The notes under the pieces are model-generated. The model had not been told where the DNA came from and did no database searches. It worked only from the letters and a program-made list of their open reading frames with translations. DNA of 49,259 nt from positions 11,405 through 60,663 of the forward strand of contig NZ_RDBI01000035.1 in NCBI RefSeq assembly GCF_008042125.1, given 5' to 3'. Shown here one piece after another: positions 2-17,339 of this stretch. The DNA comes from Streptomyces sp. MS191 (lineage in GTDB: Bacteria > Actinomycetota > Actinomycetes > Streptomycetales > Streptomycetaceae). Position 1 is the first letter of the stretch. The number at the start of each line of letters is the position of its first letter. The translations under genes were made by a program, and so were the position numbers.

Positions 2-202
2 GGCAACCCGGTCGTCGACGAGATCGGCATCCGCTCCTACATGGGCGCGCCGCTGATCGACCGGACGGGCGTGGCGCTCGGCACGATCTGCGTCGTCGAC
101 ACCGACGTGCGGCCGTGGGGCCGGGCGGGCCTGGAGACGATCAAGACGCTGGCCGCGGAGCTGGTGGAGCAGATCCACCGTCGCGAGGACGGAATGCTCT
201 GA
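2..202 (+). pseudogene. C-terminal end of a GAF-domain protein (inverted second copy)
   Basis: This open frame enters from the window edge and ends at a TGA at 200-202. It encodes the last 66 residues of a GAF-type sensor domain (residues like RSYMGAPL, GTICVVD, ending HRREDGML). Positions 1-184 are an exact reverse complement of 293-476, which lies inside the minus-strand GAF gene of the conservon operon. This plus-strand copy keeps what looks like the natural C-terminus and is followed by a terminator-like hairpin. The minus-strand copy instead runs into unrelated sequence. The two copies are therefore best read as one gene seen twice through a fold-back. How far this copy extends to the left is unknown. 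Confidence 0.7.
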
Positions 203-228
203 GCACGGTGTGAACCCGCGCGCGGGTG

Positions 229-262
229 GCGCCCCGGAACGGCGAAGGCCGGGCCGGGGCGC
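229..262 (+). terminator. Hairpin after the natural GAF gene stop
   Basis: Arms GCGCCCCGG (229-237) and CCGGGGCGC (254-262) pair perfectly across a 16-nt loop, 27 nt after the TGA at 202. There is no long T-run, which is usual for Streptomyces terminators. Its position supports the plus-strand copy as carrying the true gene end. Confidence 0.55.
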
Positions 263-292
263 GTTCGTCTTCTCGGTCCTTCCTCGGTGTCG

Positions 293-844
293 GCGACGGT
301 GGATCTGCTCCACCAGCTCCGCGGCCAGCGTCTTGATCGTCTCCAGGCCCGCCCGGCCCCACGGCCGCACGTCGGTGTCGACGACGCAGATCGTGCCGAG
401 CGCCACGCCCGTCCGGTCGATCAGCGGCGCGCCCATGTAGGAGCGGATGCCGATCTCGTCGACGACCGGGTTGCCCGCGAAACGCGGGTAGTCGCAGACG
501 TCCTCCAGGACGAGGGCCTTGCGGCGCACCACGACGTGCGGGCAGTAGCCGTGGTCGCGCGCCATGAAGCGGCCCACGTTGCCGCCGGCCGCCGCCGCGC
601 CCAGGTCGCTGCCCGAGTGGGTGCCGGCCGGGGTGTGCAGGCCGGCGAAGAACTGCCGGTTCTCGTCGATGAAGTTGACCATGGAGTACGGGGCTCCGGT
701 CACCTCCGCGAGCCGGTGGGCGAAGTCGTCGAAGGCCTGCTCCGGCCGCTCCCCGAGACCCAGTTCGCGCAGCCGCTGGACACGGACGGGCGCTTCCCGG
801 TCGACGGGGGTCAGCAGCAGATGACCGGTCGGGTCGTAGGTCAT
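293..844 (-). CDS. Conservon-associated GAF-domain protein, 3' end scrambled
   Basis: The protein starts MTYDPTGHLLL at an ATG that overlaps the cvnD stop (ATGA), so it is the last translationally coupled gene of the conservon. Residues about 30-180 form a GAF domain (VNFIDENRQFF, then VVVRRKALVLEDV, then the GTICVVD core). GAF domains of this type bind small ligands or redox cofactors and feed signals to two-component or GTPase switches. The natural protein is probably about 189 residues ending EDGML, judged from the inverted copy at 2-202. Here the frame crosses the fold-back at 293 without a stop and would continue into antisense sequence. Only 293-844 should be treated as gene. Confidence 0.75.
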
Positions 845-1464
845 GTCGGGGCTCCGTAGCTCGGCACGGCGGCCGGGATGGTGGTGAGCAGATGCTGGAC
901 GAGGGTGAGGAGGGTGCGGATGCCGGCGCTTGAGATCCGGGCGTCGCACAGGACGACGGGCACCTCGGGCTTGAGGTCGAGCGCGGCTCGCACCTCGTCC
1001 GGCTCGTAGCGGTAGGCGCCGTCGAACTCGTTGACCGCGACGACGAACCCGATGCCCCGGCGCTCGAAGAAGTCGACCGCCGAGAAGCAGTCCTCCAGGC
1101 GGCGAGTGTCGGCGAGGACGACGGCTCCGAGGGCGCCCTCGGAGAGTTCGTCCCACATGAACCAGAAGCGTTCCTGGCCCGGGGTGCCGAACAGGTAGAG
1201 CACGTTGCGGTCGTCGAGGGTGATGCGCCCGAAGTCCATCGCGACGGTGGTGGTGGTCTTGGACTCGACGCCCACCAGGCTGTCGGTGCCCGCGCTGACC
1301 TGGGTCAGCAGCTCCTCGGTGCTCAGCGGTTCGATCTCGCTGACCGCGCCCACGAAGGTGGTCTTGCCGACGCCGAAGCCGCCCGCCACCAGGATCTTCA
1401 GCGCGGTGGGGAAGGGGTCGGACACGAAACTCTCGTGGCGCTCAGAGCCGTTGTCGTAGGCCAT
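841..1464 (-). CDS. cvnD: Conservon GTP-binding protein CvnD-like
   Basis: A 207-residue Ras-like small GTPase of the bacterial MglA/CvnD group. The P-loop GGFGVGKTT lies near residue 30, switch II is GTPGQERF, and the base-specificity motif is NEFD, a variant of NKxD. In Streptomyces conservons this protein works at the membrane with a sensor kinase (CvnA), a roadblock protein (CvnB) and a DUF742 protein (CvnC) as a G-protein-like complex. The ATG at 1464 lies 22 bp inside the end of cvnC, so translation is coupled. The stop overlaps the ATG of the GAF gene. The family and context are clear; the signal it senses is not. Confidence 0.93.
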   Translation of the reverse strand: MAYDNGSERHESFVSDPFPTALKILVAGGFGVGKTTFVGAVSEIEPLSTEELLTQVSAGTDSLVGVESKTTTTVAMDFGRITLDDRNVLYLFGTPGQERFWFMWDELSEGALGAVVLADTRRLEDCFSAVDFFERRGIGFVVAVNEFDGAYRYEPDEVRAALDLKPEVPVVLCDARISSAGIRTLLTLVQHLLTTIPAAVPSYGAPT

Positions 1465-1816
1465 CGAGCACTGCCTCCAGCAAGGAACGGTCGGTTGGAT
1501 TGGCGTGGAAGCGGGGCGCCCGGGCGGTGAGCGCCCCGCAGTCCACGAGGTCGGAGAGGAGGACCTTGGTGACGACCGCCGGCAGCCGTAAGTGCGCCGC
1601 GACCTCCGCCACCGAGGTGGGTCCGTCGCACAGCCCGAGGGCCAGACTGTGCTCGGGACCCATGTGCCCCTGCGGGGAGGAGCCCGTCGCCATCACCATC
1701 GACAGGAGATCCAGTGCGGTGGTGGGCTTGGTCCGGCCGCCGCTCACGGTGTACGGGCGGATCAGCCGCCCGGCCGCGTCGTCGAGCCAGGGCCCCTCCT
1801 GGGACATCACGCTCAC
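1442..1816 (-). CDS. cvnC: DUF742 protein, CvnC-like
   Basis: A protein of about 124 residues with the DUF742 signature: an RPYTVSGGRT segment near residue 20 and a winged-helix-like second half (SVAEVAAHLRLP ... VLLSDLVDCGAL). In conservons this small cytosolic component sits between the roadblock protein and the GTPase. I chose the GTG at 1816 because its GTGA overlaps the cvnB stop. An ATG at 1807 would give MSQEGPW and is an equally reasonable start. The 3' end overlaps cvnD. Confidence 0.88.
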   Translation of the reverse strand: MSVMSQEGPWLDDAAGRLIRPYTVSGGRTKPTTALDLLSMVMATGSSPQGHMGPEHSLALGLCDGPTSVAEVAAHLRLPAVVTKVLLSDLVDCGALTARAPRFHANPTDRSLLEAVLDGLRQRL

Positions 1817-2247
1817 AGCCCCGTGCTGCCCGCCGCGCCGGCGGCCTGTCTGGCGGGCGTGACCAGGTACGGCCGCACGCTCTTGACCAGCATCGCCATC
1901 TCGTAGCCGAGGACGGCGGCGTCCGCCTCGCGACCGGCGAGCACCGCCAGGCAGGTGCCGGAACCGGCGGTGGAGACGAACAGCAGGGTGGAGTCGAGTT
2001 CGACGACGACCTGGCGGACCTCGCCACCGTCGCCGAACCGCGCACCGGCGCTGCGGCCGAGCGAGTACAGCCCGGAGGCCAGGGCCGCCATGTGGTCGGC
2101 CGCGTCGGTGTCGAGGCCGTGGACGGATTTGACCAGGCCGTCGGAGGAGAGCAGGACCGCGTTGCGGGTGTAGGGGACCCGCTGGACCAGACCGCTCAGC
2201 AGCCAGTCGAGATCCGAGGAATGGCCGGTCGGCGAGTTGCTGACCAT
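1813..2247 (-). CDS. cvnB: Roadblock/LC7-domain protein, CvnB-like
   Basis: A 144-residue roadblock/LC7 protein of the MglB class, which acts as the regulatory partner of the CvnD GTPase. It opens with DLDWLLSGLVQRVP and has the expected alternating fold (AVLLSSDGLVKSV, then the LFVSTAGSGTCLAVLAG strands). The ATG at 2247 is preceded by AAGGAG 10 nt upstream, inside the end of the cvnA fragment. Its stop overlaps the start of cvnC. The length is normal for the family and the gene is intact. Confidence 0.93.
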   Translation of the reverse strand: MVSNSPTGHSSDLDWLLSGLVQRVPYTRNAVLLSSDGLVKSVHGLDTDAADHMAALASGLYSLGRSAGARFGDGGEVRQVVVELDSTLLFVSTAGSGTCLAVLAGREADAAVLGYEMAMLVKSVRPYLVTPARQAAGAAGSTGL

Positions 2248-2254
2248 GGTGCAT

Positions 2255-2395
2255 CTACTCCTTGTGCGCGTCGCCGGGACGCTGCGGTTCATGGGCTGGG
2301 GGCTGGGATTCTGCGAGTCCGATGCCACGCTGGAACGCGGCCATCAGACCGGGGTCGTGCAGGGCGTGTTCCTCGGGCTTGCGGGCCGTGGGCTC
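2255..2395 (-). pseudogene. cvnA: C-terminal tail of conservon sensor kinase CvnA
   Basis: About 46 codons in the correct orientation directly upstream of cvnB, ending in TAG at 2255-2257. The tail reads GLMAAFQRGIGLAESQ followed by a proline-rich end, as expected for the last residues of a CvnA kinase. Upstream of about 2395 the coding sequence stops making sense on this strand, and an internal piece of the same kind of kinase appears on the other strand. The sensor, membrane and ATPase regions of CvnA are absent from the window. Confidence 0.7.
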
Positions 2396-2700: not shown

Positions 2701-3756
2701 GTGTGGCATGAGCGGGACACGACCGGCCCCGTCCTGGCCGGTGACGTCACGAAGGAGGGGACGGTCGCCGGTTTCGGCTACGCCCCGTCCGCCCAGCCGA
2801 AGGCCGCGTGCGACCGGCTGCTGCTGAACGGCGACGAGGCTCTCGCCGAACCGCCCGACCGGCCCGTACCGGTGGACGCCGGGACCGTCCGGAGCCTCGC
2901 GGCCACCCCGGTGCGGCGGGTGGATCCGGAGCGGGTGCACCGGGCCGCGGAGCTCGACAGCGCGCTGCCCGACGCGGTCGCGGAGACCCTGGCGCTGCCG
3001 GGGTCGGCCTGGGGAGAGGTCGCGGGCCCGCTCGTCCAGGAGGTACGCGAGTCGCGCCATCTGCTCTGGCTCACCGGCGGGTTCGCCCGGGACCTCATCG
3101 CCGGCCGCGCCGCCGAGGTCAACGACCTCGACCTCACGGGCACGGCCCCGCCGGGCCGCTTCAGCGACCTGTCCAGGCGGGCACGGCGCCGCAACGGGCT
3201 GGAGTTCCGGGCCAAGGTGTCGCCCTACTCCCTGGTCTGCTCGGCCGTACCGCCCCAGGGCGGCGAACGGCTCTACGAGTACCGGACGTTGAAGACGAAC
3301 GCCTTCGGCTTCCCGGCCTGCGGCAGCGACCTCGAGACCGACGCCCGCTGCCGCGACTTCACCGTGAACAGCCTCTACTACGATCCGCTCGGGCACACCG
3401 TGGTCGACCCGACCGGCGCGGGGCTGGCGGACCTGCGGGCCCGGCCGCGTCGCCTCACCTCGCTGCACTCCACCGACGACCGGCTCGACCAGGCCCGGCT
3501 GATCCTGCGCGCGGTCAAGTTCGCGGTGCGCTGGGCCGGTACCACCGGCTGTGAGCTCGGCGCGACGGCGGCCCGCCTCGCGCACGTGCCCACGACGGCG
3601 TGGGACGGGCTGCCTCCGGCCGACTGGGAACGTCTGGCCGGGGACCATCGCCGGGCCCTCGCCGGCCACGATCCGGGCCGGCAGCTCGGCGTCGCCGCCG
3701 CGCTCGGCCCCGCCGCCGCCGGCCTGCTCGCCACCCTGCTGGAGGTGCGGCCGTGA
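2701..3756 (+). CDS. CCA-adding/poly(A) polymerase family nucleotidyltransferase
   Basis: A 351-residue protein with the class II nucleotidyltransferase head. GGFARD (about residues 126-131) is followed by the metal-binding pair D142 and D144 (NDLDLTG), then CRDFTVNSLYYDP, then the DPTGAGLADL and RLILRAVKFAVR segments typical of tRNA nucleotidyltransferases. It lacks an HD domain and is shorter than housekeeping CCA-adding enzymes, so I expect a specialised transferase that adds nucleotides to an RNA or protein target. The GTG at 2701 is 4 nt after GGAGG. Its stop overlaps the next start, which ties it to the two unusual genes downstream. The substrate is unknown. Confidence 0.8.
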   Translation: MWHERDTTGPVLAGDVTKEGTVAGFGYAPSAQPKAACDRLLLNGDEALAEPPDRPVPVDAGTVRSLAATPVRRVDPERVHRAAELDSALPDAVAETLALPGSAWGEVAGPLVQEVRESRHLLWLTGGFARDLIAGRAAEVNDLDLTGTAPPGRFSDLSRRARRRNGLEFRAKVSPYSLVCSAVPPQGGERLYEYRTLKTNAFGFPACGSDLETDARCRDFTVNSLYYDPLGHTVVDPTGAGLADLRARPRRLTSLHSTDDRLDQARLILRAVKFAVRWAGTTGCELGATAARLAHVPTTAWDGLPPADWERLAGDHRRALAGHDPGRQLGVAAALGPAAAGLLATLLEVRP

Positions 3757-5037
3757 CCGGAGTCCACCGTCCCCTCAGCGACTGGGTCGTCCGTCTCGGC
3801 CCGCCGCCGGCACCCGGCACGAGCCCGATCAACGACGGCGACGAACGGGCCGACGCCCGCGACCTCCCGCTCTTCACGGAGGGCTGGGTCCGGCGTGCCG
3901 TGGCGGCGGGACCGGACCGGCCGTCGGTGCTCGCCCTGCAGCACCCGGCCACCGCCGTCACGTACGTCGAACTCGACGACCACGGAGCGCCGTTACGCAT
4001 CGGCGAGGCGGGCGCCGAGCTGATCGGCCGCGTCGAGACGTCCTGGCCCCTTCCCGTCCTCGGCACGGACGACCTGACGGCGCTGGCCGCGCTGTCCCGG
4101 GAGGTCCGCTACCTGCTGCTGCACCGGCTGTCCCAGGAGGGAGCACCGCCCCCCGGGGTCTTCCACTCCCTGCCGTGGGAGCCGGTGACGGAGCTGGCGT
4201 CGGCGGTCGTCCGCCTGCTCGACGGCGGCGCACCGCCGTCGCTGTCCGCCGAGGCGCTGGACCTCGGCCACTGGGTCACGCCCGCGGCGCTCGGCGTGAC
4301 CGGACCGCTGGAGCAGCTGTACGAGGGGCTGACGGAGCCCGATCCGGTGCTCGCCGCGCGGGGCGGCACGGCGCTCTGCGGGACTGCGCGCCGCGGACCC
4401 GGCACGGTTCCCCGCGCCGGTGACGACGGCCCTCGCCGAGGTCGCCCGGCGGCTGGCCACGGTCAACCCGTTCCTGCGGCACGCGGCGGTCCTGGCCGCC
4501 GGGCGGCTGACGGGCGCGACCTCGTCCGGTTTCGTCACCGGCCTCGAACCCGCCCTGCCCAAGTCGGCCTCGGGCACCGCCGACCGCGCGGTGGTCGACC
4601 GGCTCGGCGACGACGGCCCGTTCGCGGTCCGCACCGAGATCACTCCGGGCGGCCGGCTGAAGGTGACGGTGGAACTCGCCCTGGAGGCGACACCGGAACG
4701 GGAACGGCTCCTCGACGCGTACGGAGGCGCGTTCCTCCCGGTCGTCGTGGCGTCGCCCGGCGGCACGCTCCGGTACTGGGTGGCGCTGGAGGCCCGGCGC
4801 CGGTGGCTCTCCGGAACGCTCGACGTGCCCGTGGTGCGCGGGGAGTTCCGCGCCGAGGACGCGGTGACGGGCGTGTGGGGCCTGGCCGGTGTCTCCCCGG
4901 ACGAGCTGCTGCCCTCGCTGGCGGGGACGCATCGCGCCGGCCTCCGGGTGTGGCGGGCGGCGGCGGACCTGTCCCCCGCGGGGCACCCGCTGCGCCGGGC
5001 GCTCCGCCGCCTCGGCGGAGAGGGCGGCGCGTCGTGA
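3753..5037 (+). pseudogene. Unrecognised protein, frameshifted near 4380
   Basis: GTG at 3753 overlaps the nucleotidyltransferase stop. The first frame reads well to about codon 209 (ending GTALCG at about 4380) and then turns into arginine-rich nonsense. The correct continuation (LRAADPARFPAP, then LATVNPFLRHAAVLAAG) is in the next frame and runs to 5037. Removing one G from GGG at 4380-4382 would restore one protein of about 428 residues. I see no Walker, protease or membrane motif. The C-terminal third (EITPGGRLKVTVELAL ... RYWVALEARRRWLSG) is mostly beta and may be a partner or adaptor domain. The stop overlaps the start of the next gene, so the three genes form one coupled operon. Whether the shift is a sequencing error or real is undecided. 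Confidence 0.6.
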
Positions 5038-8000
5038 CCTTCATCGAGGACCTGCGGACCCTGCTCACGGACGAACTCGACGGACCGGACGAGGAGTCGG
5101 CCCTGTACGGGGCGCTGACCCGCTCGCCCCTGCTGCTGGAGTTCGTCCAGTCCCTGGTCGGCGCCCGGGACGTGGAGTCCCTGCGCACGCTGTGCCACGG
5201 AAGCGTCGAACTGCACGAACTGACCGAGCGCTACGGCACGGTGCCGGGCGCCCTCACCACCCCCGCCGAGGAGCCGTACGCCGGCTGCGGACCGGTGACC
5301 GGCGCGGTGCGGGCCGTGGCCGCGCTGGGCCTGGTGCTGGTCGACGAGGAGGACCGGCTCGCGGACCACCTGGCCGTCGCGCTGACCTGGCTGGCGCACG
5401 CCCGCGCCGCGGCGGAGGCGCCGTGGCCCACCGGGCGGCAGGCCCCGGCGTGCGCCCACCACGACCGGCTGTCCGCCGCCGTGGCGGCGCTGGGCACCGA
5501 CCCGCACGCGACCACCGTGGTGGTGTGGCTGCTCGCCCTGCAGAAGGAGGACCCGAAGGAGGGTGCGACGGCGACGGTCGACGTCCTCATGGACCGCGGC
5601 GACCTCGGGATCCGGGCGTCACTGCGGGCCACGACGCTGCGCGGACTGCCGCCCGCCCTGGTCCCGGACCCGTGGACCATGCTGCTGTTCACCGCGGACG
5701 ACCGCTTCCGCTCCGGCCTGGAGACCGCCTGGCGGGCGGCGGGCCACCGGCGGCACGACGGCGACGTGCGCGGCGCGGTCCTCTGGTCGCTGGCCGGTGT
5801 CGACGGACCGGTGGACCACGTCCAGGACGTCAGCCTGACGGCGGCGTTCACCGTCCTCGTGGACGAGATGCGCCGGAAGAACCGGCGGCTGCGCGGCCCG
5901 CTCACCGTCCGGCGCCTCGGCGGCTCGACCGCCGTCGTCGGCGGGGTCGACGACGAGGGACGCATGGTCGGGGTGACCGGCTACCGCAACAAACTGGCCG
6001 TCGCGGCCGCGCTCGACCGGGTCGTGGTCCCGGACACCGACCTGAGGGAGGCCCGGGAGCACGCGAGCGGCCTGGAGACCACCGTCGTCGGGGTGCGCGC
6101 GTGGCAGGAGGCGGCCCGCCGCAGCCGGATCCCCGACCGCAGGGCCTGGCTGCGGGTTCTGCTCGTCTGCGTCCTCGTGCTGAGCGCGGGCTCGGGGACC
6201 GGCGCGTACGTGTGGAACGGCAACCGGCAGGCCCAGGAGCTGCGCGACACCGCCGCCCGGGTCCTGGACGAGGCGTACGCGCAGGACGACGGCGTCGACC
6301 CGGGACTCCGGCTGCTGCTGGCCATGGCCAGCGACGACATCGCGGGCCAGGCGGGCGACAAGCCCGACGCCCTGGTCACGATGGCCGGCGAGAGCTCCAG
6401 CCTGCGCAGGCTGCTGCGGCCCGAGGAGGGCCGGTTCGAGCGGCTCGCCCTGTCGCGCGACGGCGCGTGGGGCGCGTTGTCCACCAGCACCGGAGCCGTG
6501 GAGATCGTGTCCACCAAGTCCGGGGACGTGGTGTGGCGCCGGAAGGGGAGCGGCGTGGAGCCCACGGCACCCGGGGTGTTCGTCAACGGTCTCGCGGTGT
6601 CGCCCCGGGGGCAGCGGGTGGCCTTCGCGACGAGCGATCTGCGTCTCACCGTCGTGGAGAAGAAGAAGGGGTCATGGTCGGTCGCGAGCCGGATCGCTCT
6701 GCCGATCCCCTCCGACCCCGGACCGCTGCACACCGAGCGCAACAAGGTGGACCACCTGGAGTTCACCTCGGACATGCAGTCGCTCGTCGCGTACGTGGAC
6801 ACGATCGGGCTGCTCACGTACGACGTGCGACATCTGGACGCCGCACCGCGCCGCTGCCCCGAGCGCGGCACCGCCAAGACGATGTGGGCGGGGGAGGGCG
6901 AGGTGCTGCTGACCAAGGACCGCGAGGTCGTCAGGGTGGATCTGAAGTCCTGCGCCCGGTCCGTGGCGCTCACCGCGCCCGAGGACGTCTTCCTGCACGG
7001 TGCCGTGGGGGACCACGGGGTCACGGCCGCCGCGACCCGCGGCGCCCAGTTGCTCACCCTGGGCCCGAACAGGACCGAGACCGTCGTGGCCGACCGCGGC
7101 CCCTACGGGACGGTCTCGCTGAACTCCGCCGACGACGGGGCGCACCTGAGCGCAACGAGACTCTCCGGCCGCTACGGGGGCACCTACGGCTGGAACGTCG
7201 GCGAGCGGTCGCAGGAGTACGGCTACCCCAAGGCCGGACCGGCGGTGATGGGCAACGGCATCGTGCTGCGGCACCACGGCGGAGTCGCCGAACTCCACGA
7301 CGGCGGCCACTCCGCCGCGACGAGGGCGTGGAACCACTTCTACGGCGGAATGGGGTCGCTCGCCTGGGCGGGCCAGGACCTCGTGCTGCGCGCCGGTCCG
7401 GCCCTGTACCTGCTGCCGCGTGCGAAGGACCTCACGTCGGAGACCATGGATGATCCGAAGCGCTACCACCGCCTGGCCCTGCCGAAGGGCAGCACCAGCA
7501 GGGAACTCGCCACCAGCAGAAGCGGCCACTGGGCCGCGGCGCTGTACAGCAGGAAGGGGGAGCGCAGCCGCGACCTGGCGGTCTGGGATCTCAGCGCACG
7601 GCGCCTGACGCCGGTGCCGCTGCCGAAGAAGGCCGGACTCCGACACGTCGCCTTCGTCGGCAGCGATCTCTACACCGGGTACAGCGACGGCGAAGTCCGG
7701 CGCTTCACGGTGTCGGGCGGCATCTGGCGGAGCGCCGGAAGCCGGCGGCTCGCGGCCGGCGTCACGGCGCTGGGCGGAGGCGGCGAGGGCGCAGACCGTC
7801 TCTACGCGGTCATCAGTACCGGCAGCGCCGACCGGCCGTCCGTCGTCGCGCTTCGGACCTCCGACCTCTCGGTCGTCGCGACCCGGCGACTGGAGGGCGG
7901 GACGGCGATCGCGAAGGTCGAGGTGATGCGGGACGGCCAGGTGGTCGTGGGCTCCGGCGCGGGGACGGTCACCTTCTTCACCGCGGACCTGCAGCAGCGC

Positions 8001-8354
8001 GGCCGGGCCTCCGACGGCGAGCTCCAGTTCGTCCTGGACCTCACGGAGATTCCGGGGAAGGGCCTGTTGCTGGTGTCGGGCAAGTCGCGCAGCGCCGTCT
8101 TCGGGCTGAACACCATGACCCCGCGGGACGAGTGGAACATGGGGGCGCCGTTCCTGTCCGCGGACGCCCCGCCGGACGGCGGCGTCCTGGCGACGTACAA
8201 CTTCTCGACCTTCAACGTGGCCCTGTGGACGCTCGACGAGTCCGATCTGCGGGCCCGCGTCTGTCAGGTCGTCGGTCGCGATCTGACCGAAGAGGAGTGG
8301 CGGCAGTACGTGGGCGAGGGCGTCCCCTACGCGCCGGTCTGCAAGAGCCGATAG
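5034..8354 (+). CDS. Lon-like domain, transmembrane segment and beta-propeller protein
   Basis: A 1106-residue protein. Residues 1-200 are helical with no family I recognise. Residues about 215-345 resemble the S16 Lon-protease fold: DVSLTAAF places a Ser near 267, and GYRNKLAVAAA followed by RVVVPDTDL places a Lys near 320, matching the Ser/Lys layout of Lon. One transmembrane helix lies at about 371-392. From about 395 an acidic helical linker leads into a long repetitive beta region (LALSRDGAWGALS, LAVSPRGQRVAFA, LAVWDLSARRL) consistent with a WD40-like propeller, probably outside the membrane. Similar architectures occur in actinobacterial NTPase/protease conflict proteins, but the function here is inferred only. 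Its GTG overlaps the upstream stop, and a strong terminator follows. Confidence 0.6.
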   Translation: MTFIEDLRTLLTDELDGPDEESALYGALTRSPLLLEFVQSLVGARDVESLRTLCHGSVELHELTERYGTVPGALTTPAEEPYAGCGPVTGAVRAVAALGLVLVDEEDRLADHLAVALTWLAHARAAAEAPWPTGRQAPACAHHDRLSAAVAALGTDPHATTVVVWLLALQKEDPKEGATATVDVLMDRGDLGIRASLRATTLRGLPPALVPDPWTMLLFTADDRFRSGLETAWRAAGHRRHDGDVRGAVLWSLAGVDGPVDHVQDVSLTAAFTVLVDEMRRKNRRLRGPLTVRRLGGSTAVVGGVDDEGRMVGVTGYRNKLAVAAALDRVVVPDTDLREAREHASGLETTVVGVRAWQEAARRSRIPDRRAWLRVLLVCVLVLSAGSGTGAYVWNGNRQAQELRDTAARVLDEAYAQDDGVDPGLRLLLAMASDDIAGQAGDKPDALVTMAGESSSLRRLLRPEEGRFERLALSRDGAWGALSTSTGAVEIVSTKSGDVVWRRKGSGVEPTAPGVFVNGLAVSPRGQRVAFATSDLRLTVVEKKKGSWSVASRIALPIPSDPGPLHTERNKVDHLEFTSDMQSLVAYVDTIGLLTYDVRHLDAAPRRCPERGTAKTMWAGEGEVLLTKDREVVRVDLKSCARSVALTAPEDVFLHGAVGDHGVTAAATRGAQLLTLGPNRTETVVADRGPYGTVSLNSADDGAHLSATRLSGRYGGTYGWNVGERSQEYGYPKAGPAVMGNGIVLRHHGGVAELHDGGHSAATRAWNHFYGGMGSLAWAGQDLVLRAGPALYLLPRAKDLTSETMDDPKRYHRLALPKGSTSRELATSRSGHWAAALYSRKGERSRDLAVWDLSARRLTPVPLPKKAGLRHVAFVGSDLYTGYSDGEVRRFTVSGGIWRSAGSRRLAAGVTALGGGGEGADRLYAVISTGSADRPSVVALRTSDLSVVATRRLEGGTAIAKVEVMRDGQVVVGSGAGTVTFFTADLQQRGRASDGELQFVLDLTEIPGKGLLLVSGKSRSAVFGLNTMTPRDEWNMGAPFLSADAPPDGGVLATYNFSTFNVALWTLDESDLRARVCQVVGRDLTEEEWRQYVGEGVPYAPVCKSR

Positions 8355-12008: not shown

Positions 12009-12968
12009 ATGACCATTTCTGGCCACCTGCAGGAGCTCCACGGCCTGCCCGTGTTCGACTTCCCGGAGCGCGGCTCCTCCGTCGGACTGCCGGACGCCGC
12101 CTCCGTCGCCTGGCGCGTCTCCGCCCCGACGTACTGCGAGGCGGACGACGAGCAGTGGGAGCAGGTCTTCGCCCGCTTCCTCGCCGACGTCGACGTCCGG
12201 CAGGTCCGCGCCCTGGTGGTCGGCGGCTGGGACGAGGCGTACGAGACCTCCTCCGCCGAGATCGTCACCGCTCTCGTCGGCGCCAACAACCGCCTCACCG
12301 GTCTCGAGGCGCTGTTCCTCGGCGACATGACGTTCGAGGACTGCGAGATCTCCTGGATCCAGCAGTCCGACGTGACCCCCCTGCTGGCCGCGTACCCCGG
12401 ACTGCGGGAGTTCGGCGTGCGGGGCGGCAGCAACCTCGCCTTCCCGGCGATCGAGCACCACGCGCTGCACACCCTGGTGGTCGAGTCGGGCGGGCTCGGC
12501 GCCGAGGTGGTGCGCGGGATCGCGGGCAGCGCCCTGCCCGCCCTGGAGAACCTCGAACTCTGGCTCGGCACGGACCAGTACGGCGGCGACAGCACGCCCG
12601 CCGACCTGGAGCCGCTGCTCGCCGGCACCAACTTCCCCGCCCTGCGCAGCCTCGGACTGCGCAACAGCGACTCGCAGGACGGGATCGCCGCCGCCGTGGC
12701 GAGCGCCCCGGTGGTCGGCCGGCTCGAACGCCTCGACCTGTCGATGGGCACGCTCACCGACGAGGGCGCGGCGGCGCTCCTCGCGGGTCAGCCGCTCACG
12801 CACCTGGGACACCTCGGCCTCGCACACCACTACCTCTCCGAGGAGATGAGCGAGCGGATCGTCGACGCCCTCACCCCGCACGGTGTGCGGGTCGACGTCG
12901 GCGACCGTCAGGTGCCGGAGTCGTACCGCGACGGTGAGACCTACCGGTACGTCGCGGTAGCGGAATGA
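12009..12968 (+). CDS. STM4015 family leucine-rich-repeat protein
   Basis: A 319-residue protein recognised as the STM4015 family from its leucine-rich repeats (LTGLEALFLGDM, PALENLELWLG, PALRSLGLRNS, RLERLDLSMG, LTHLGHLGLAHHYLSEEM) and its operon partners. It has no signal peptide or membrane segment, so it is probably a cytosolic scaffold or recognition protein for the enzymes that follow. I chose the ATG at 12009, preceded by a weak GGAG, over an upstream start at 11949 that adds 20 atypical residues. Its stop overlaps the next start (ATGA). The family has no established function that I know of. Confidence 0.85.
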   Translation: MTISGHLQELHGLPVFDFPERGSSVGLPDAASVAWRVSAPTYCEADDEQWEQVFARFLADVDVRQVRALVVGGWDEAYETSSAEIVTALVGANNRLTGLEALFLGDMTFEDCEISWIQQSDVTPLLAAYPGLREFGVRGGSNLAFPAIEHHALHTLVVESGGLGAEVVRGIAGSALPALENLELWLGTDQYGGDSTPADLEPLLAGTNFPALRSLGLRNSDSQDGIAAAVASAPVVGRLERLDLSMGTLTDEGAAALLAGQPLTHLGHLGLAHHYLSEEMSERIVDALTPHGVRVDVGDRQVPESYRDGETYRYVAVAE

Positions 12969-14092
12969 CCACCGCCGTGCGCCTCGCCGTCGTCGGCAAC
13001 CCGGCCAACCGCCGTGTCGCGTTCTTCCGCGACGCCGTGCGGGCCGCCGGGCTGCCCGAGGCACGGGTGGTGCCCTGGCTGGACGTCCTGCGGGGCGACA
13101 CCGCGTTCCGGCCGGGCGAGACGGTCCGGCTGGACTCGCCCGGCGAGGACCCCGACGTGGACCGGCTGTTGCGCGGCACCGACGACCCGACCCGGGTGGA
13201 GGGCACGGCCCGCTGGTACCGTGCGTTCACCGCCGCCACCGCGGAGCTCGCCGTCACCGTCGACGCCGCCGGGGCGGTCCTGCTCGACGCACCCGCCGAC
13301 CTCGCGGTCCTGTTCGACAAGCGCCTGGCCCACGCACGGCTGCGGGAGGCGGGCGTCCCGGTGCCGGACTCCCCCACCTCCGGGCCGGCCGCACCCCCCG
13401 TCCGGGGCTGGGACGACGTCCGGTCCCTGATGACGGACGCCGGTCTCCGCCGGGTCTTCGTCAAACTCGCCCACGGCTCCTCCGCCTCGGGCGTGCTCGC
13501 GGTGGAGACCGACGGCGCGGGGCGGGTGCACGCGACCACCTCCGTGGAACGCGCCGCGGACGGCCGCCTCTTCAACTCCCTGCGGGTGCGGCGCTACACG
13601 GCGGAGAGCGCGGTCGCGGCCGTCGTCGACGCGCTCGCCCCGGACGGGCTGCACATCGAGCGCTGGCTGCCCAAGGCCGCGCAGGACGGCCGTGCGGCCG
13701 ACCTGCGGGTCGTGGTCGTCGACGGCCGTGCGACCCACGCCGTGGTCCGCACCAGCCGCTCCCCCATGACCAACCTCCATCTGGGCGGCGCCCGCGGCAG
13801 CCTGGACGCGGCACGGTCGGCCGTGGAGACGGCCGGCGCCCGCTGGTCCGACGCGCTGGACGTGTGCGAGCGGGCCGCGGCGGCCTTCCCCGGCACGCAC
13901 TGCGTCGGGGTCGACCTGCTGCCCGCCGCCGGCTGGCGCCGCTTCGCCGTCGTCGAGGTCAACGCCTTCGGCGACCTCCTGCCCGGCCTCACCGGCCTGC
14001 CCGGCAGCGGCGCCGAGGGCATGGACACGTACGCGACGCAGGTGGCCTCCCTCCTGCGGACCCCCAGCACCACAGGAACGAGCACCAGGTGA
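12965..14092 (+). CDS. STM4014 family ATP-grasp-like protein
   Basis: A 375-residue protein with an ATP-grasp layout. Residues 1-60 form an N-terminal alpha/beta subdomain (LAVVGNPANRRVAFFRD). FVKLAHGSSASGV places the ATP-binding lysine near residue 165. A VVEVNAFGDLLPGL segment near the C-terminus carries the Glu/Asn metal ligands. ATP-grasp enzymes join a carboxylate to an amine or thiol through an acyl phosphate, so this is the likely ligation step of the operon. The ATG overlaps the STM4015 stop, and its TGA overlaps the next GTG. The substrate is unknown. Confidence 0.83.
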   Translation: MTTAVRLAVVGNPANRRVAFFRDAVRAAGLPEARVVPWLDVLRGDTAFRPGETVRLDSPGEDPDVDRLLRGTDDPTRVEGTARWYRAFTAATAELAVTVDAAGAVLLDAPADLAVLFDKRLAHARLREAGVPVPDSPTSGPAAPPVRGWDDVRSLMTDAGLRRVFVKLAHGSSASGVLAVETDGAGRVHATTSVERAADGRLFNSLRVRRYTAESAVAAVVDALAPDGLHIERWLPKAAQDGRAADLRVVVVDGRATHAVVRTSRSPMTNLHLGGARGSLDAARSAVETAGARWSDALDVCERAAAAFPGTHCVGVDLLPAAGWRRFAVVEVNAFGDLLPGLTGLPGSGAEGMDTYATQVASLLRTPSTTGTSTR

Positions 14093-15108
14093 ACACCCCG
14101 ACGGCCCGCCCCGAGCCCGACGCGAACGCCACGACGCCTCCGGGCGGCCCCGGGACGTCCCCCGCGCCGCTTCCGGGCGGCCGCGACGCGTCCCCGGCGG
14201 AAGCGGCCGGCGGGCCGGACATGAACGAGGTCGTCGGCAGCCACGACCTCCTCCTGGTCACACTCGACACCCTGCGCCACGACGTCGCGGCCGAACTGGC
14301 CGCGGCCGGGCGCATCCCCCACCTGGCCGGGCACCTGCCCGGCGGCCGGTGGGAGCGGCGACACGCCCCGGGCAGTTTCACCTACGCCTCCCACCAGGCG
14401 ATCTTCGCCGGCTTCCTGCCCACACCGGCCGCCCAGGGCCCGCATCCCCGGCTGTTCGCCGCGCGCTTCGCGGGCAGCGAGAGCACGGCCGACGGCACCT
14501 TCGTCCACGACACCCCCGACCTGGTCTCGGGTCTCGCCGCGCACGGCTACCGCACCGTGTGCATCGGCGGCGTCGGTTTCTTCGACAAGAGGCCGCCACT
14601 CGGTGCGGTCCTGCCGGGGCTGTTCCAGGAGAGCCACTGGGAGCCCTCGTTCGGGGTCGCGTCGCCGGTCTCGTTCGAGTCCCAGGTGGACCGGGCCGAG
14701 GAGGTCGTCGCCGCGCTCCCGCACGACCGCAGGCTGTTCCTCTTCGTCAACGTGTCCGCGCTGCACCAGCCCAACTGGTTCCACCTCCCCGGCGCGACCC
14801 GGGAGGACGGCGACACCCGGGCCACCCACGCGGCCGCGCTGGAGTACGTCGACCGGCACATCGGCCGGCTCTTCGCCGCCATGAGCAGCCGCCGCCGCTG
14901 CTTCGCGATCGTCTGCTCGGACCACGGCACGGCGTACGGCGAGGACGGGTTCACCGGGCACCGGCTCGGCCACGACGTGGTGTGGACGGTTCCCTACGCC
15001 CACTTCTTCCTGGACGGCCCGCCGGCCGACACGCCCCCGGCCGAGGCGTCCGCCGCCGTCGCGCCCGAAGCCCTGCCGGCCGGCCCGCGCGGAGGGACGC
15101 CCGCATGA
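14089..15108 (+). CDS. STM4013/SEN3800 family hydrolase
   Basis: A 339-residue alkaline-phosphatase/sulfatase-superfamily hydrolase. The first metal Asp with the Thr nucleophile region is LLVTLDTLRHDVA. The second metal site is SDHGTAYGEDGF with the histidine in HRLGHDVVWTVPYAHF. Such enzymes hydrolyse phosphate or sulfate esters. The GTG at 14089 overlaps the previous stop and gives a Pro/Ala-rich leader of about 44 residues with no counterpart in the catalytic fold. An ATG at 14221 (MNEVVGSHDLL) would start just before the domain and may be the real start. The 3' end overlaps the radical SAM gene. Confidence 0.83.
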   Translation: MNTPTARPEPDANATTPPGGPGTSPAPLPGGRDASPAEAAGGPDMNEVVGSHDLLLVTLDTLRHDVAAELAAAGRIPHLAGHLPGGRWERRHAPGSFTYASHQAIFAGFLPTPAAQGPHPRLFAARFAGSESTADGTFVHDTPDLVSGLAAHGYRTVCIGGVGFFDKRPPLGAVLPGLFQESHWEPSFGVASPVSFESQVDRAEEVVAALPHDRRLFLFVNVSALHQPNWFHLPGATREDGDTRATHAAALEYVDRHIGRLFAAMSSRRRCFAIVCSDHGTAYGEDGFTGHRLGHDVVWTVPYAHFFLDGPPADTPPAEASAAVAPEALPAGPRGGTPA

Positions 15109-16442
15109 CCCGCCCCGAGGCCCCGCGCCCGTACCAGAGCTACGTCTACGCCTACCCCCACAAGACGGCCTACCGGTCGCTCCCCGACCCGGCGCCCCGG
15201 CTGGACGGTCTGTGGGCGCGGGAGCCGAAGGACGCGCTGTCCCTCTACGCGCACATCCCGTTCTGCGAGGTCCGCTGCGGATTCTGCAACCTCTTCACCC
15301 GGATCGGCGCCCCGGACGAGCTGACGACCCGCTACCTCGACGCGCTGGACCGCCAGGCGTCCGCCGTCCGCGAGGCGCTCGGTGACGACTCCCCGGTCCG
15401 GTTCGCCACGGCCGCCTTCGGCGGCGGCACGCCCACCTTCCTGACCGCCGGTGAGCTGGAGCGCCTCTGCGACATCGCCGAGAAGCGGATGGGAGCCGAC
15501 CTGCGCGCGGTGCCGCTGTCCGTGGAGACCTCCCCGGCGACCGCCACCGCGGACCGGCTCGCGGTCCTCGCCGAGCGCGGCGCGACGCGCCTGAGCATCG
15601 GCGTGCAGAGCTTCGTCGAGGCCGAGGCCCGGGCCGCCGTGCGCCCGCAGCGCCGCGCCGACGTCGAGGCGGCGCTCGGCCGGATCCGGGACAGCGGCGT
15701 CCCCGTCCTCAACATCGACCTGATCTACGGCATCGACGGTCAGACCGCGGAGAGCTGGCGCCGCTCGCTCGACGCGGCGCTCGCGTGGCGACCGGAGGAG
15801 CTGTACCTCTACCCGCTCTACGTCCGCCCGCTGACCGGGCTCGGGCGGCTCTCGCCGCAGTCCGACCGGGACTGGGACGAGCAGCGGCTGGGCCTGTACC
15901 GCCACGGCCGGGACCACCTGCTCGACCGGGGCTACGAGCAGCTGTCGATGCGGATGTTCCGTCGCGCCGACGCACCGCCGCAGGGCTCCGACGACTACGC
16001 CTGCCAGACCGACGGCATGATCGGTCTGGGCTGCGGGGCCCGCTCGTACACCTCGGCGCTGCACTACTCCTTCGACTACGCCGTCGACATGCGGGAGATC
16101 CGCTCGATCATCGACACCTACACGCGCACCGAGGACTTCGGCCGGGCCCGGGTGGGCCGGTGGGTGGATGCGGCGGAGGCACGCCGGCGTCATCTGCTGC
16201 AGTCGCTCCTCCAGGCCGCCGGGATGCCCGTGGTGGAGTACACGGAGCGCTTCGGCTCCTCGCCGTACGCGGACTTCCCCGAGGAGCTGGGGCGTTTCAC
16301 GGCGCTCGGCTGGCTGGACCCGGAGGCTCCCGACGGACTGCTCCGGCTGTCCGCCGAGGGTCTGGCGCACTCCGACGGCATCGGTCCGGCGCTGTTCTCG
16401 CCCGCCGTACGGGCGGCGATGTCCGCCTACGAGCCGAAGTAG
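15105..16442 (+). CDS. STM4012 family radical SAM protein
   Basis: A 445-residue radical SAM enzyme with a HemN-like layout. The 4Fe-4S cysteines are C54, C58 and C61 in FCEVRCGFC. A GGGTPTFL segment, an SVETSPATAT strand, a RLSIGVQSF strand and the NIDLIYGIDGQT motif follow the order of coproporphyrinogen dehydrogenase relatives. A C-terminal winged-helix-like region (residues about 350-445) matches the HemN C-terminal domain. Chemistry is SAM-dependent radical formation; the substrate is unknown. The ATG overlaps the hydrolase stop, and 9 bp separate it from the next radical SAM gene. Confidence 0.9.
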   Translation: MTRPEAPRPYQSYVYAYPHKTAYRSLPDPAPRLDGLWAREPKDALSLYAHIPFCEVRCGFCNLFTRIGAPDELTTRYLDALDRQASAVREALGDDSPVRFATAAFGGGTPTFLTAGELERLCDIAEKRMGADLRAVPLSVETSPATATADRLAVLAERGATRLSIGVQSFVEAEARAAVRPQRRADVEAALGRIRDSGVPVLNIDLIYGIDGQTAESWRRSLDAALAWRPEELYLYPLYVRPLTGLGRLSPQSDRDWDEQRLGLYRHGRDHLLDRGYEQLSMRMFRRADAPPQGSDDYACQTDGMIGLGCGARSYTSALHYSFDYAVDMREIRSIIDTYTRTEDFGRARVGRWVDAAEARRRHLLQSLLQAAGMPVVEYTERFGSSPYADFPEELGRFTALGWLDPEAPDGLLRLSAEGLAHSDGIGPALFSPAVRAAMSAYEPK

Positions 16443-16451
16443 GCGGCCGGG

Positions 16452-17339
16452 ATGGACCTGACGATCCTCTACCGGGGCCCGCTCGCCTCCTGCGACTACG
16501 ACTGCCCCTACTGCCCCTTCGCCAAGCGGCGCGACAGCCGTGAGCAGCTGCGTGCGGACCGGGCGGCACTGGAGCGCTTCGCGGCCTGGGCGGCCGGACG
16601 GACCGGGGACCGGCTGCGGATCCTCTTCACCCCGTGGGGCGAGGGGCTGGTGCGGTCCTGGTACCGGCGCGCGCTCGTCGAGCTGTCCCGCCTACCGCAC
16701 GTCGAGCGGGTCGCGATCCAGACGAACCTGAGCTGCCGCACCGGGTGGACGGCGGAGGCCGACCCCGGCACCTTGGCGCTGTGGTGCACCTACCACCCGG
16801 GCCAGACGCCGTTCGAGCGGTTCGTCGCGAAGTGCGGGGAGCTGGCCGCGCGGGGCACGCGGTTCAGCGTCGGTGTGGTCGGGCTGCCCGGGCACCGGGA
16901 GGACGCCCGGCGGCTGCGCGCCGCGCTGCCGCCGCAGGTCTACCTGTGGGTGAACGCGGCCGAGGGGCACACGTACACCGACGAGGAGGCCGAGGGCTGG
17001 ACGGCCCTCGACCCCCTGTTCCCGTACAGCCGCCATCCGCACCGTTCGGCCGGGCTCCCCTGCCGGACCGGCGAGTCGGTGATCTCGGTGGACGGAGACG
17101 GGACCGTGCGGCGCTGTCACTTCGTGAAGTCGGAACTCGGCAATCTCTACGACGGCTCGTACCGGTCGGCCCTGCGCCCCCGGCCGTGCCCTCTGGCCGT
17201 ATGCGACTGCCACATCGGCTACGTCCACCTGGAGTCGCTGCCGCTGTACGACGTGTTCGCGGGCGGCGTCCTGGAGCGGGTCCCGGCCTCCGTCCCGCCG
17301 CTCCCCGCGCCGCTCCTTCTGCGCCCGGGCAGGTCCTAG
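16452..17339 (+). CDS. STM4011 family radical SAM protein
   Basis: A 295-residue radical SAM protein with its cluster cysteines C14, C18 and C21 (CDYDCPYC) very near the N-terminus. A later set of cysteines (PCRTGE, RRCHFV, and CPLAVCDCH) looks like a SPASM/auxiliary Fe-S site, as found in enzymes that modify peptides or small molecules. It is the last gene of the STM4015-STM4011 operon. Its TAG overlaps the stop of the convergent SGNH gene by 3 bp. Two radical SAM enzymes plus an ATP-grasp protein suggest a multistep modification pathway, but no product is known to me. Confidence 0.9.
   Translation: MDLTILYRGPLASCDYDCPYCPFAKRRDSREQLRADRAALERFAAWAAGRTGDRLRILFTPWGEGLVRSWYRRALVELSRLPHVERVAIQTNLSCRTGWTAEADPGTLALWCTYHPGQTPFERFVAKCGELAARGTRFSVGVVGLPGHREDARRLRAALPPQVYLWVNAAEGHTYTDEEAEGWTALDPLFPYSRHPHRSAGLPCRTGESVISVDGDGTVRRCHFVKSELGNLYDGSYRSALRPRPCPLAVCDCHIGYVHLESLPLYDVFAGGVLERVPASVPPLPAPLLLRPGRS

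Follow-up and report, generated by a model that had tools for sequence, protein, structure and literature searches.

An actinobacterial three-gene module joining a nucleotidyltransferase to a Lon-like membrane propeller protein, a candidate alarm system

CBASS and related nucleotide-signal systems reportedly come with two-transmembrane (2TM)/SLATT or S_4TM effectors, as set out by Burroughs in 2015. In CalpL/CalpT/CalpS, the anti-sigma factor CalpT is bound to a sigma factor and is cut by a Lon protease once that protease has bound its signal (PMC11417357). SLATT has been predicted to form a pore that responds to nucleotides (PMC7159879), DRT9 makes DNA homopolymers and sometimes carries a SLATT gene (PMC12483538), and MenT toxins, which tail tRNA 3' ends, are held by a partner (PMC10435456). 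Here we describe a locus of Streptomyces sp. MS191 at which a nucleotidyltransferase gene (NT), a second gene (P2) and a gene for a Lon-like membrane propeller protein (P3) are joined. The stretch analysed, called the window throughout and numbered from its first letter, comprises 49,259 nt (positions 11,405-60,663 of the forward strand of contig NZ_RDBI01000035.1, from GCF_008042125.1, a draft assembly in 261 contigs). We find that NT-P2-P3 is a co-inherited, taxonomically patchy actinobacterial three-gene module, and that it is likely an alarm, probably for defence. The literature searched, with subscription papers mostly outside its reach, held no description of this set, in agreement with the initial annotation of the sequence, which knew of none.

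All three genes lie on the + strand of the window (2701-3756, 3753-5037 and 5034-8354) and begin with GTG, NT at 2701, where GGAGGAACT precedes the start, P2 at 3753 and P3 at 5034. Both junctions are 4-nt overlaps reading GTGA, the NT stop with the P2 start at 3753-3756 and the P2 stop with the P3 start at 5034-5037, as the initial annotation had described in noting stop-start overlaps. P3 conservation was scored in alignments A4 (35 full-length rows) and A5 (11 N-terminal rows), 37 different rows together; P0063, L025 and L079 were omitted from A4 (L025 and L079 are present in A5), and L079 was also omitted from alignment A3. The features are as follows.

2701..3756, + strand: NT, a nucleotidyltransferase of 351 aa with a PolyA_pol head and no HD domain (Pfam PF01743; PDB profile match)
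3124..3132, + strand: catalytic DxD of NT (Asp142, Asp144), invariant in 30/30 family rows
3352..3357, + strand: Arg218-Asp219 of the NT motif RDxTxN, invariant in 30/30
3753..4385, + strand: N-terminal part of P2, with the signature HRPLSxWV, in the frame before the break (tblastn match in 12/12 relatives; codon-position GC content)
4384..5037, + strand: C-terminal part of P2, in the next frame (tblastn match in 11/12 relatives, L079 in the alignment only)
5034..8354, + strand: P3, 1106 aa, with a helical N-terminus, a Lon-like domain, a transmembrane segment and tandem WD40 propellers
5559..6128, + strand: Lon-like Ser-Lys domain of P3, about residues 176-365 (Lon profile match over the Lys half; Lon_C in homologues)
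5832..5834, + strand: Ser267 of P3, putative nucleophile, invariant in 35/35 rows of A4 and 11/11 of A5
5991..5993, + strand: Lys320 of P3, putative general base, placed on the Lon catalytic Lys by hidden Markov model alignment, invariant in A4 and A5
6150..6212, + strand: predicted transmembrane segment of P3, N-terminus predicted inside (hydropathy; arginine-rich N-terminal flank)
6396..8237, + strand: tandem WD40 propellers of P3, about residues 455-1068, predicted outside
8262..8342, + strand: Cys1077 and Cys1103 of P3 after the propellers, a possible disulfide, both invariant in 35/35

The three genes occur together in all 13 family loci examined: the window, L021 (Glycomyces), L022 (Micromonospora), L023 (Acrocarpospora), L025, L077 and L079 (Streptomyces), L078 and L080 (the window's genus), L081, L082, L142 and L148. 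L077 and L079 also go by the handles L024 and L026 and enter the count a single time, and L081 and L148 are nearly syntenic at about 89% DNA identity. NT relatives fell in 48 loci of the named genome collection, six in the family (L021-L026) and 42 more distant and presumed to be of pcnB/CCA type; none of the latter had P2 or P3, in controls that include short contigs, down to 3.6 kb. A lack of co-occurrence had been named beforehand as grounds for refutation, and this was not what the genomes showed: NT and P2 matches were confined to one and the same set of 3 genomes among 394 sampled in the class, and NT matches in the window's genus were found in 5 of 392 genomes, the same five with strong matches to the P3 N-terminal profile (E 5e-118 or better). 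Six more genus genomes matched that profile at E 1.5e-37 to 1.2e-7 and gave no NT match; the Lon-like domain therefore also exists apart from NT.

NT and P2 are adjacent and in constant order in 13/13 loci, with a 4-nt overlap of NT stop and P2 start in ten, and P3 lies downstream of the pair in nine loci and upstream in four (L078, L080, L082 and L142). Pairwise divergences of the three proteins were correlated over 11 loci (r 0.80, 0.71 and 0.64, Mantel p 0.0002 each), in a comparison without species-tree control to which the window contributes the P2 N-terminal part only. Both the linkage of the three genes and the conservation of catalytic residues are strong.

Order searches for further family loci gave nothing new in 35 genomes around G622 and a single addition in 116 genomes around G644; this one, in G866, is syntenic with L081 (DNA about 89% identical). 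Megablast of 2701-8354 found no match in plasmids. A protein search of plasmids returned 13 records; among the 10 listed, one is a family member, a 799-kb plasmid of Streptomyces sp. NBC_01717, and the other nine are annotated pcnB or are unannotated with 53-63% query coverage. On the plasmid-borne locus L142 (NZ_CP109179.1, 3831-12099), P3, a lipoprotein, NT, P2 and a SLATT-annotated protein form a five-gene set, and a Mrr-type restriction endonuclease lies about 4 kb beyond it. The phage search gave 13 weak matches; among the 10 listed, none covered over 80% of the query and most were annotated as CCA or polynucleotide adenylyltransferases. Among these phage records, CCA-type nucleotidyltransferases are encoded by large phages of E. 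coli and Salmonella and might serve in tRNA-end repair.

Judged by its sequence, NT is probably catalytic and not a CCA enzyme. It matches the PolyA_pol head PF01743 (E 3.4e-13) and a Pfam scan found no HD domain, bearing out the earlier call of a CCA-type nucleotidyltransferase without HD; its best PDB profile match is E. coli poly(A) polymerase (3aql, E 1.2e-13), and about residues 1-105 are an N-terminal extension of its own. The head motifs, named as in class II nucleotidyltransferases, are present (GGxxRD, DxD and RDxTxN), with GG, R130, D142, D144, R218, D219 and N223 in 30/30 rows and D131 and T221 in 29/30 (alignment A1, from which the truncated homologues P0018 and P0022 were excluded). 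The EDxxR motif has a base-choosing role in class II enzymes; across this family it is variable, with D at position 263 in 13/30 rows (E in 7) and R at 266 in 12/30. NT scored 22.4 bits on tRNA_CCA_actino, against a cut-off of 438.8, and 52.7 bits on the PcnB family, against 305.65, and the window's genome encodes a separate tRNA_CCA_actino enzyme at 825.8 bits. No SMODS model (Pfam, NCBIfam, PADLOC) and no DUF1814/AbiEii model (Pfam) matched NT at E up to 1. The family is small: out of 5.8 billion proteins, 7997 candidates were scored, and 21 of them are close relatives (E 3e-80 or better). Ordinary enzymes follow after a gap, at E 1e-6; neighbours of the 21 were examined where the homologue falls in fetched loci.

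A 67-residue NT piece identical to the window's lies at the end of another contig of the same genome (C134, L083), and was excluded from the 13 loci. This 3.2-kb contig carries a kinase gene, and its positions 1-207 and 3103-3190 match window 3398-3604 and 1418-1505 at 100% (207 and 88 bp). Its ends probably reflect an assembly overlap or an unresolved duplication; we treat them as the former.

The assignment of P3 as a membrane protein combining a Lon-like Ser/Lys domain with a propeller, proposed in the initial annotation, held up in profile searches. With A5 as query against PDB, Lon accounted for 23 of the 26 matches at E up to 10, including all of the top 19 (best E 5e-4). Neither Ser267 nor Lys320 varies in the 37 rows, and Ser267 corresponds to the Lon Ser by position and, by eye, through the GPSLG sequence of L096; the catalytic residues of E. 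coli Lon are numbered Ser679/Lys722. The distant homologue L098, of the same architecture, matches the A5 profile at 8.5e-33 and Lon_C at 30.1 bits (E 4.6e-7), above the cut-off of 21.1 that L096 and L097 narrowly miss with 20.0 and 17.4 bits. We call the domain Lon-like, not Lon, because P3 has no Pfam AAA match at E up to 1; nor was there a SAVED match at that threshold, and propellers stand in its place.

Hydropathy places a transmembrane stretch at about residues 373-393 of the window's P3, with an arginine-rich flank N-terminal to it, and a peak between Lon-like domain and propellers recurs in 10 of 11 proteins scanned, L078 being the exception. The tandem WD40 propellers were recognised from the family profile and a model; on its own, the window's protein gives a weak Pfam propeller match (E 0.097). 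These propellers would face outward and sense from outside, because the positive-inside rule puts the N-terminus in, the Cys pair is conserved and predicted lipoproteins adjoin in several loci. Such lipoproteins, assigned by eye, adjoin P3-type genes in L080, L142, L096 and L097, and the one in L142 has a propeller-repeat match slightly below cut-off.

P2 had been described as a protein that could not be placed, and neither half matches anything in Pfam, NCBIfam or PADLOC; among 22 homologues scanned singly, three Pfam families each matched one member, with a best E of 0.051. What did not stand is the gene as a single open frame in the window: a one-base frame shift falls at about 4370-4390, the family profile matches the two halves in two different frames, and codon-position GC content is 0.82/0.54/0.92 before the break in one frame and 0.81/0.61/0.94 after it in the next. 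In 12 relatives P2 is a single frame of about 420-480 codons, and 13 database homologues span 416-482 aa, in a search where much shorter broken copies could not have become candidates. A model of one intact homologue, P0064, predicts a beta-sandwich and then helices for the C-terminal part. From its sequence, the break may be a sequencing error in the draft or a real lesion. The original P2 frame stays open past the break to the P3 stop (open reading frame 3600-8354), and read-through would yield a P2-P3 fusion.

Neighbouring genes vary between loci. A PADLOC 2TM 'Effector' model, PDLC00710, which we take to represent CBASS effectors, matches a protein encoded directly after P2, at most about 50 nt away, in L078, L080 and L142 (annotated SLATT in L142); these are three of the 4 matches that the model gave in 12 genomes or records. 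In L022, an S_4TM effector follows P3 at a distance of about 1.3 kb, and with it a 2TM or S_4TM effector is recognised beside the module in 4 of the 13 loci. In the window's genome (G000), PDLC00710, the one effector model searched genome-wide, has no match. In L025, L077 and L079 the module borders on membrane proteins that carry pentapeptide-type repeats, and one of these three exceeds the Pfam cut-off. An EAD8-trypsin gene lies upstream of P3 in L082, a WD40 gene with nSTAND1 is near L078 (nSTAND1 being assigned by elimination among scanned neighbours), and a large STAND NTPase-like protein, assigned by eye, follows L021. PADLOC matched 52 families among 40 neighbours from 9 of the 12 relatives; among the 25 families shown each was in one member, mostly PD-T4-6 models, and the 2TM, 4TM and EAD8/STAND-type matches were followed further.

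The window's own module is flanked by a conservon (roadblock, DUF742, ATP_bind_1), an MBL-fold hydrolase and a Glu/Leu dehydrogenase. The initial annotation had likened the set to modules of actinobacterial conflict systems; the 2TM, S_4TM, EAD8-trypsin and STAND-type genes beside some relatives lend this indirect support, but beside the window copy there are the conservon and metabolic-looking genes, and the effector, adaptor and protease roles it suggested are putative. The conservon genes (window 2-2328, including a GAF protein) are on the opposite strand and point away from NT-P2-P3. Further along, window 12009-17339 holds five same-strand genes, among them two without a Pfam match, a sulfatase-type gene and, by eye, a radical-SAM protein, a possible small-molecule cluster.

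These observations can be arranged into a relay, which we put forward tentatively and at somewhat short of an even chance: a surface receptor, P3, would cleave P2 and free NT, whose product would stop growth. With a cytoplasmic Lon-type Ser-Lys protease, a transmembrane stretch and outward WD40 propellers, all predicted, P3 would be a membrane receptor. Signal binding would lead its protease domain to cut P2, the cut would likely release NT, and the released NT would make a nucleotide product that arrests growth, either a tail on RNA or an oligonucleotide acting on membrane effectors. The constant NT-P2 pair and the movable P3 suggest an effector, its keeper and a trigger; P2 would be both keeper of NT and substrate of the P3 protease, because NT-P2 is constant in 13/13 loci while P3 comes after it in nine and before it in four. 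The parts and their linkage are observed, whereas P2 cleavage, the NT product and a role in defence are inferred. For loci with a 2TM or S_4TM effector we slightly favour the signal over direct action; for loci without one, the window included, direct action on RNA is at least as likely, because no membrane effector is recognised there.

A more specific and doubtful version, which would be a novel type of bacterial alarm, would have a propeller receptor at the cell surface, with its Lon-type protease across the membrane, cut a dedicated P2 guard, and the untemplated product of NT gate 2TM or S_4TM pores where present and otherwise poison RNA, with the receptor as a modular part. The modular receptor is suggested by P3 relatives whose neighbours, where NT and P2 would stand, are a caspase and an alpha/beta-hydrolase (L098) or a set of lipoprotein and small proteins (L096, L097). 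In L098 (2395-8445) and L101 (5353-15522), a Lon-like/transmembrane/propeller protein lies beside caspase-type and alpha/beta-hydrolase-type genes with no NT or P2 match; the Lon-like domain of L101 is degenerate, its Ser/Lys pair seemingly lost. In L096 (7368-13036) and L097 (7727-13563), such a protein has an overlapping small gene upstream, a hydrophobic protein before that and a predicted lipoprotein behind, and neither locus gave an NT or P2 match.

Several points weigh against the relay from P3 through P2 to NT. The Lon profile match covers chiefly the Lys half of the P3 domain, Pfam gives no Lon_C match for the window's own P3 or for the L025 N-terminus, pairwise hhalign of the domain with Lon reaches a probability of 11% (controls 0.1%), and two weak relatives, L100 and L101, show by eye no clear Ser/Lys pair. 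The role given to P2 has gene order as its basis, and the window's P2 copy may be dead or mis-sequenced because it is frameshifted. In the window's NT, the base-choosing motif keeps its D and R, with Leu replacing E. No membrane effector is recognised beside the module in the window, L021, L023, L081 or L148, none of the three 2TM proteins is matched by Pfam's SLATT models up to E 0.1, and the co-divergence stands without its species-tree control.

The same gene order would also suit a toxin with a plain antitoxin: NT would extend the 3' ends of tRNA or another RNA, P2 would restrain it, and P3 would be a sensor whose Lon-like adaptor binds and does not cut, a MenAT-like arrangement built on a different nucleotidyltransferase family. 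Adjacency in 13/13 loci, the 4-nt overlap in ten and the lack of a recognised membrane effector at the window and several other loci all suit it, as does the precedent of MenT, which adds nucleotides to tRNA 3' ends and is restrained by its partner (PMC10435456). Yet a binding adaptor fits poorly with a Ser267/Lys320 pair invariant in 37 rows, which favours catalysis, NT lacks a DUF1814/AbiEii match, and an extra 2TM or S_4TM effector is present in 4/13 loci; we consider this explanation unlikely.

Those four loci are what recommend a pore-centred scheme, similarly unlikely in our view, in which a nucleotide signal from NT holds or opens 2TM/SLATT pores in the manner of CBASS, Hailong or DRT9, and triads without a pore use an effector elsewhere in the genome. 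PDLC00710 directly behind P2 in L078, L080 and L142, and S_4TM in L022, fit such a role, SLATT is a predicted nucleotide-responsive pore (PMC7159879), and it is found with the poly-A-making DRT9 (PMC12483538). Nine of the 13 loci, however, the window among them, have no such effector recognised, and G000 has no match to PDLC00710, the one effector model searched there. The three 2TM proteins also lack the Pfam SLATT match, and NT is of PolyA_pol type, not a CD-NTase.

Many membrane sensors are present in Streptomyces, and a conservon neighbours the window copy, which would suit a module for envelope-stress or developmental signalling with an RNA-tailing output unrelated to phages. The patchy distribution (5/392 genus genomes), the plasmid copy and the conflict-type genes beside several relatives point instead to an accessory trait, and we regard this explanation as improbable. 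Housekeeping, in which NT would be a redundant CCA enzyme or poly(A) polymerase among incidental neighbours, could claim the PolyA_pol head and the D and R of the window's NT and is very improbable, a CCA enzyme being contradicted by the genome's own enzyme (825.8 bits against 22.4 for NT on that model), the low NT scores and the 13/13 linkage.

If the relay from P3 through P2 to NT is correct, it would join Lon-domain proteolytic relays with nucleotidyltransferase-driven immunity, so far known separately, and actinobacteria would have a route from an external signal to a nucleotide product that bypasses transcription. P2 adds a protein family with no relative found outside it, and NT is a PolyA_pol branch with catalytic residues kept in an unusual setting, whose nucleotide product is directly testable.

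Among known enzymes, NT shares with CCA-adding enzymes and poly(A) polymerase I (PcnB) the head domain with GGxxRD, DxD and RDxTxN, but it is shorter, lacks HD, has its own N-terminal extension and belongs to a family in which the base-choosing motif is not conserved. MenAT and AbiE likewise encode a nucleotidyltransferase with a partner that would restrain it, but in the covered text they have a DUF1814 domain, two genes and no protease receptor (PMC10435456). Hailong and DRT9 resemble the proposal in making oligonucleotide or homopolymer synthesis a defence step, with other polymerase families and no Lon-type receptor in the text covered (PMC12265719, PMC12483538). The EAD, trypsin, caspase and STAND systems of multicellular bacteria share peptidase effectors, propellers and an actinobacterial setting, and such genes lie near L078 and L082; term searches of PMC7159879 turned up for them neither a Lon protease nor a component of poly(A)-polymerase type, and NT, the P2 halves and P3 have no MoxR, vWA, VMAP or EAD match in Pfam. 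CBASS also pairs a nucleotidyltransferase with a neighbouring membrane effector of 2TM or S_4TM type, as in 4/13 loci here, whereas NT is of PolyA_pol type and not SMODS/CD-NTase, the core includes a protease-type receptor and P2, and 9/13 loci have no recognised effector.

The nearest worked-out logic is that of CalpL/CalpT/CalpS. There, a SAVED sensor binding cA4 and a sigma-factor output take the places of the WD40 propellers and the nucleotidyltransferase found here, and the system belongs to type III CRISPR (PMC11417357). In both cases there are three proteins, a sensor is fused to a Lon-type domain and a partner is cut, or here would be cut, to free an effector. By this likeness, P2 would correspond to CalpT as the protein that is cut, and NT to the effector set free.

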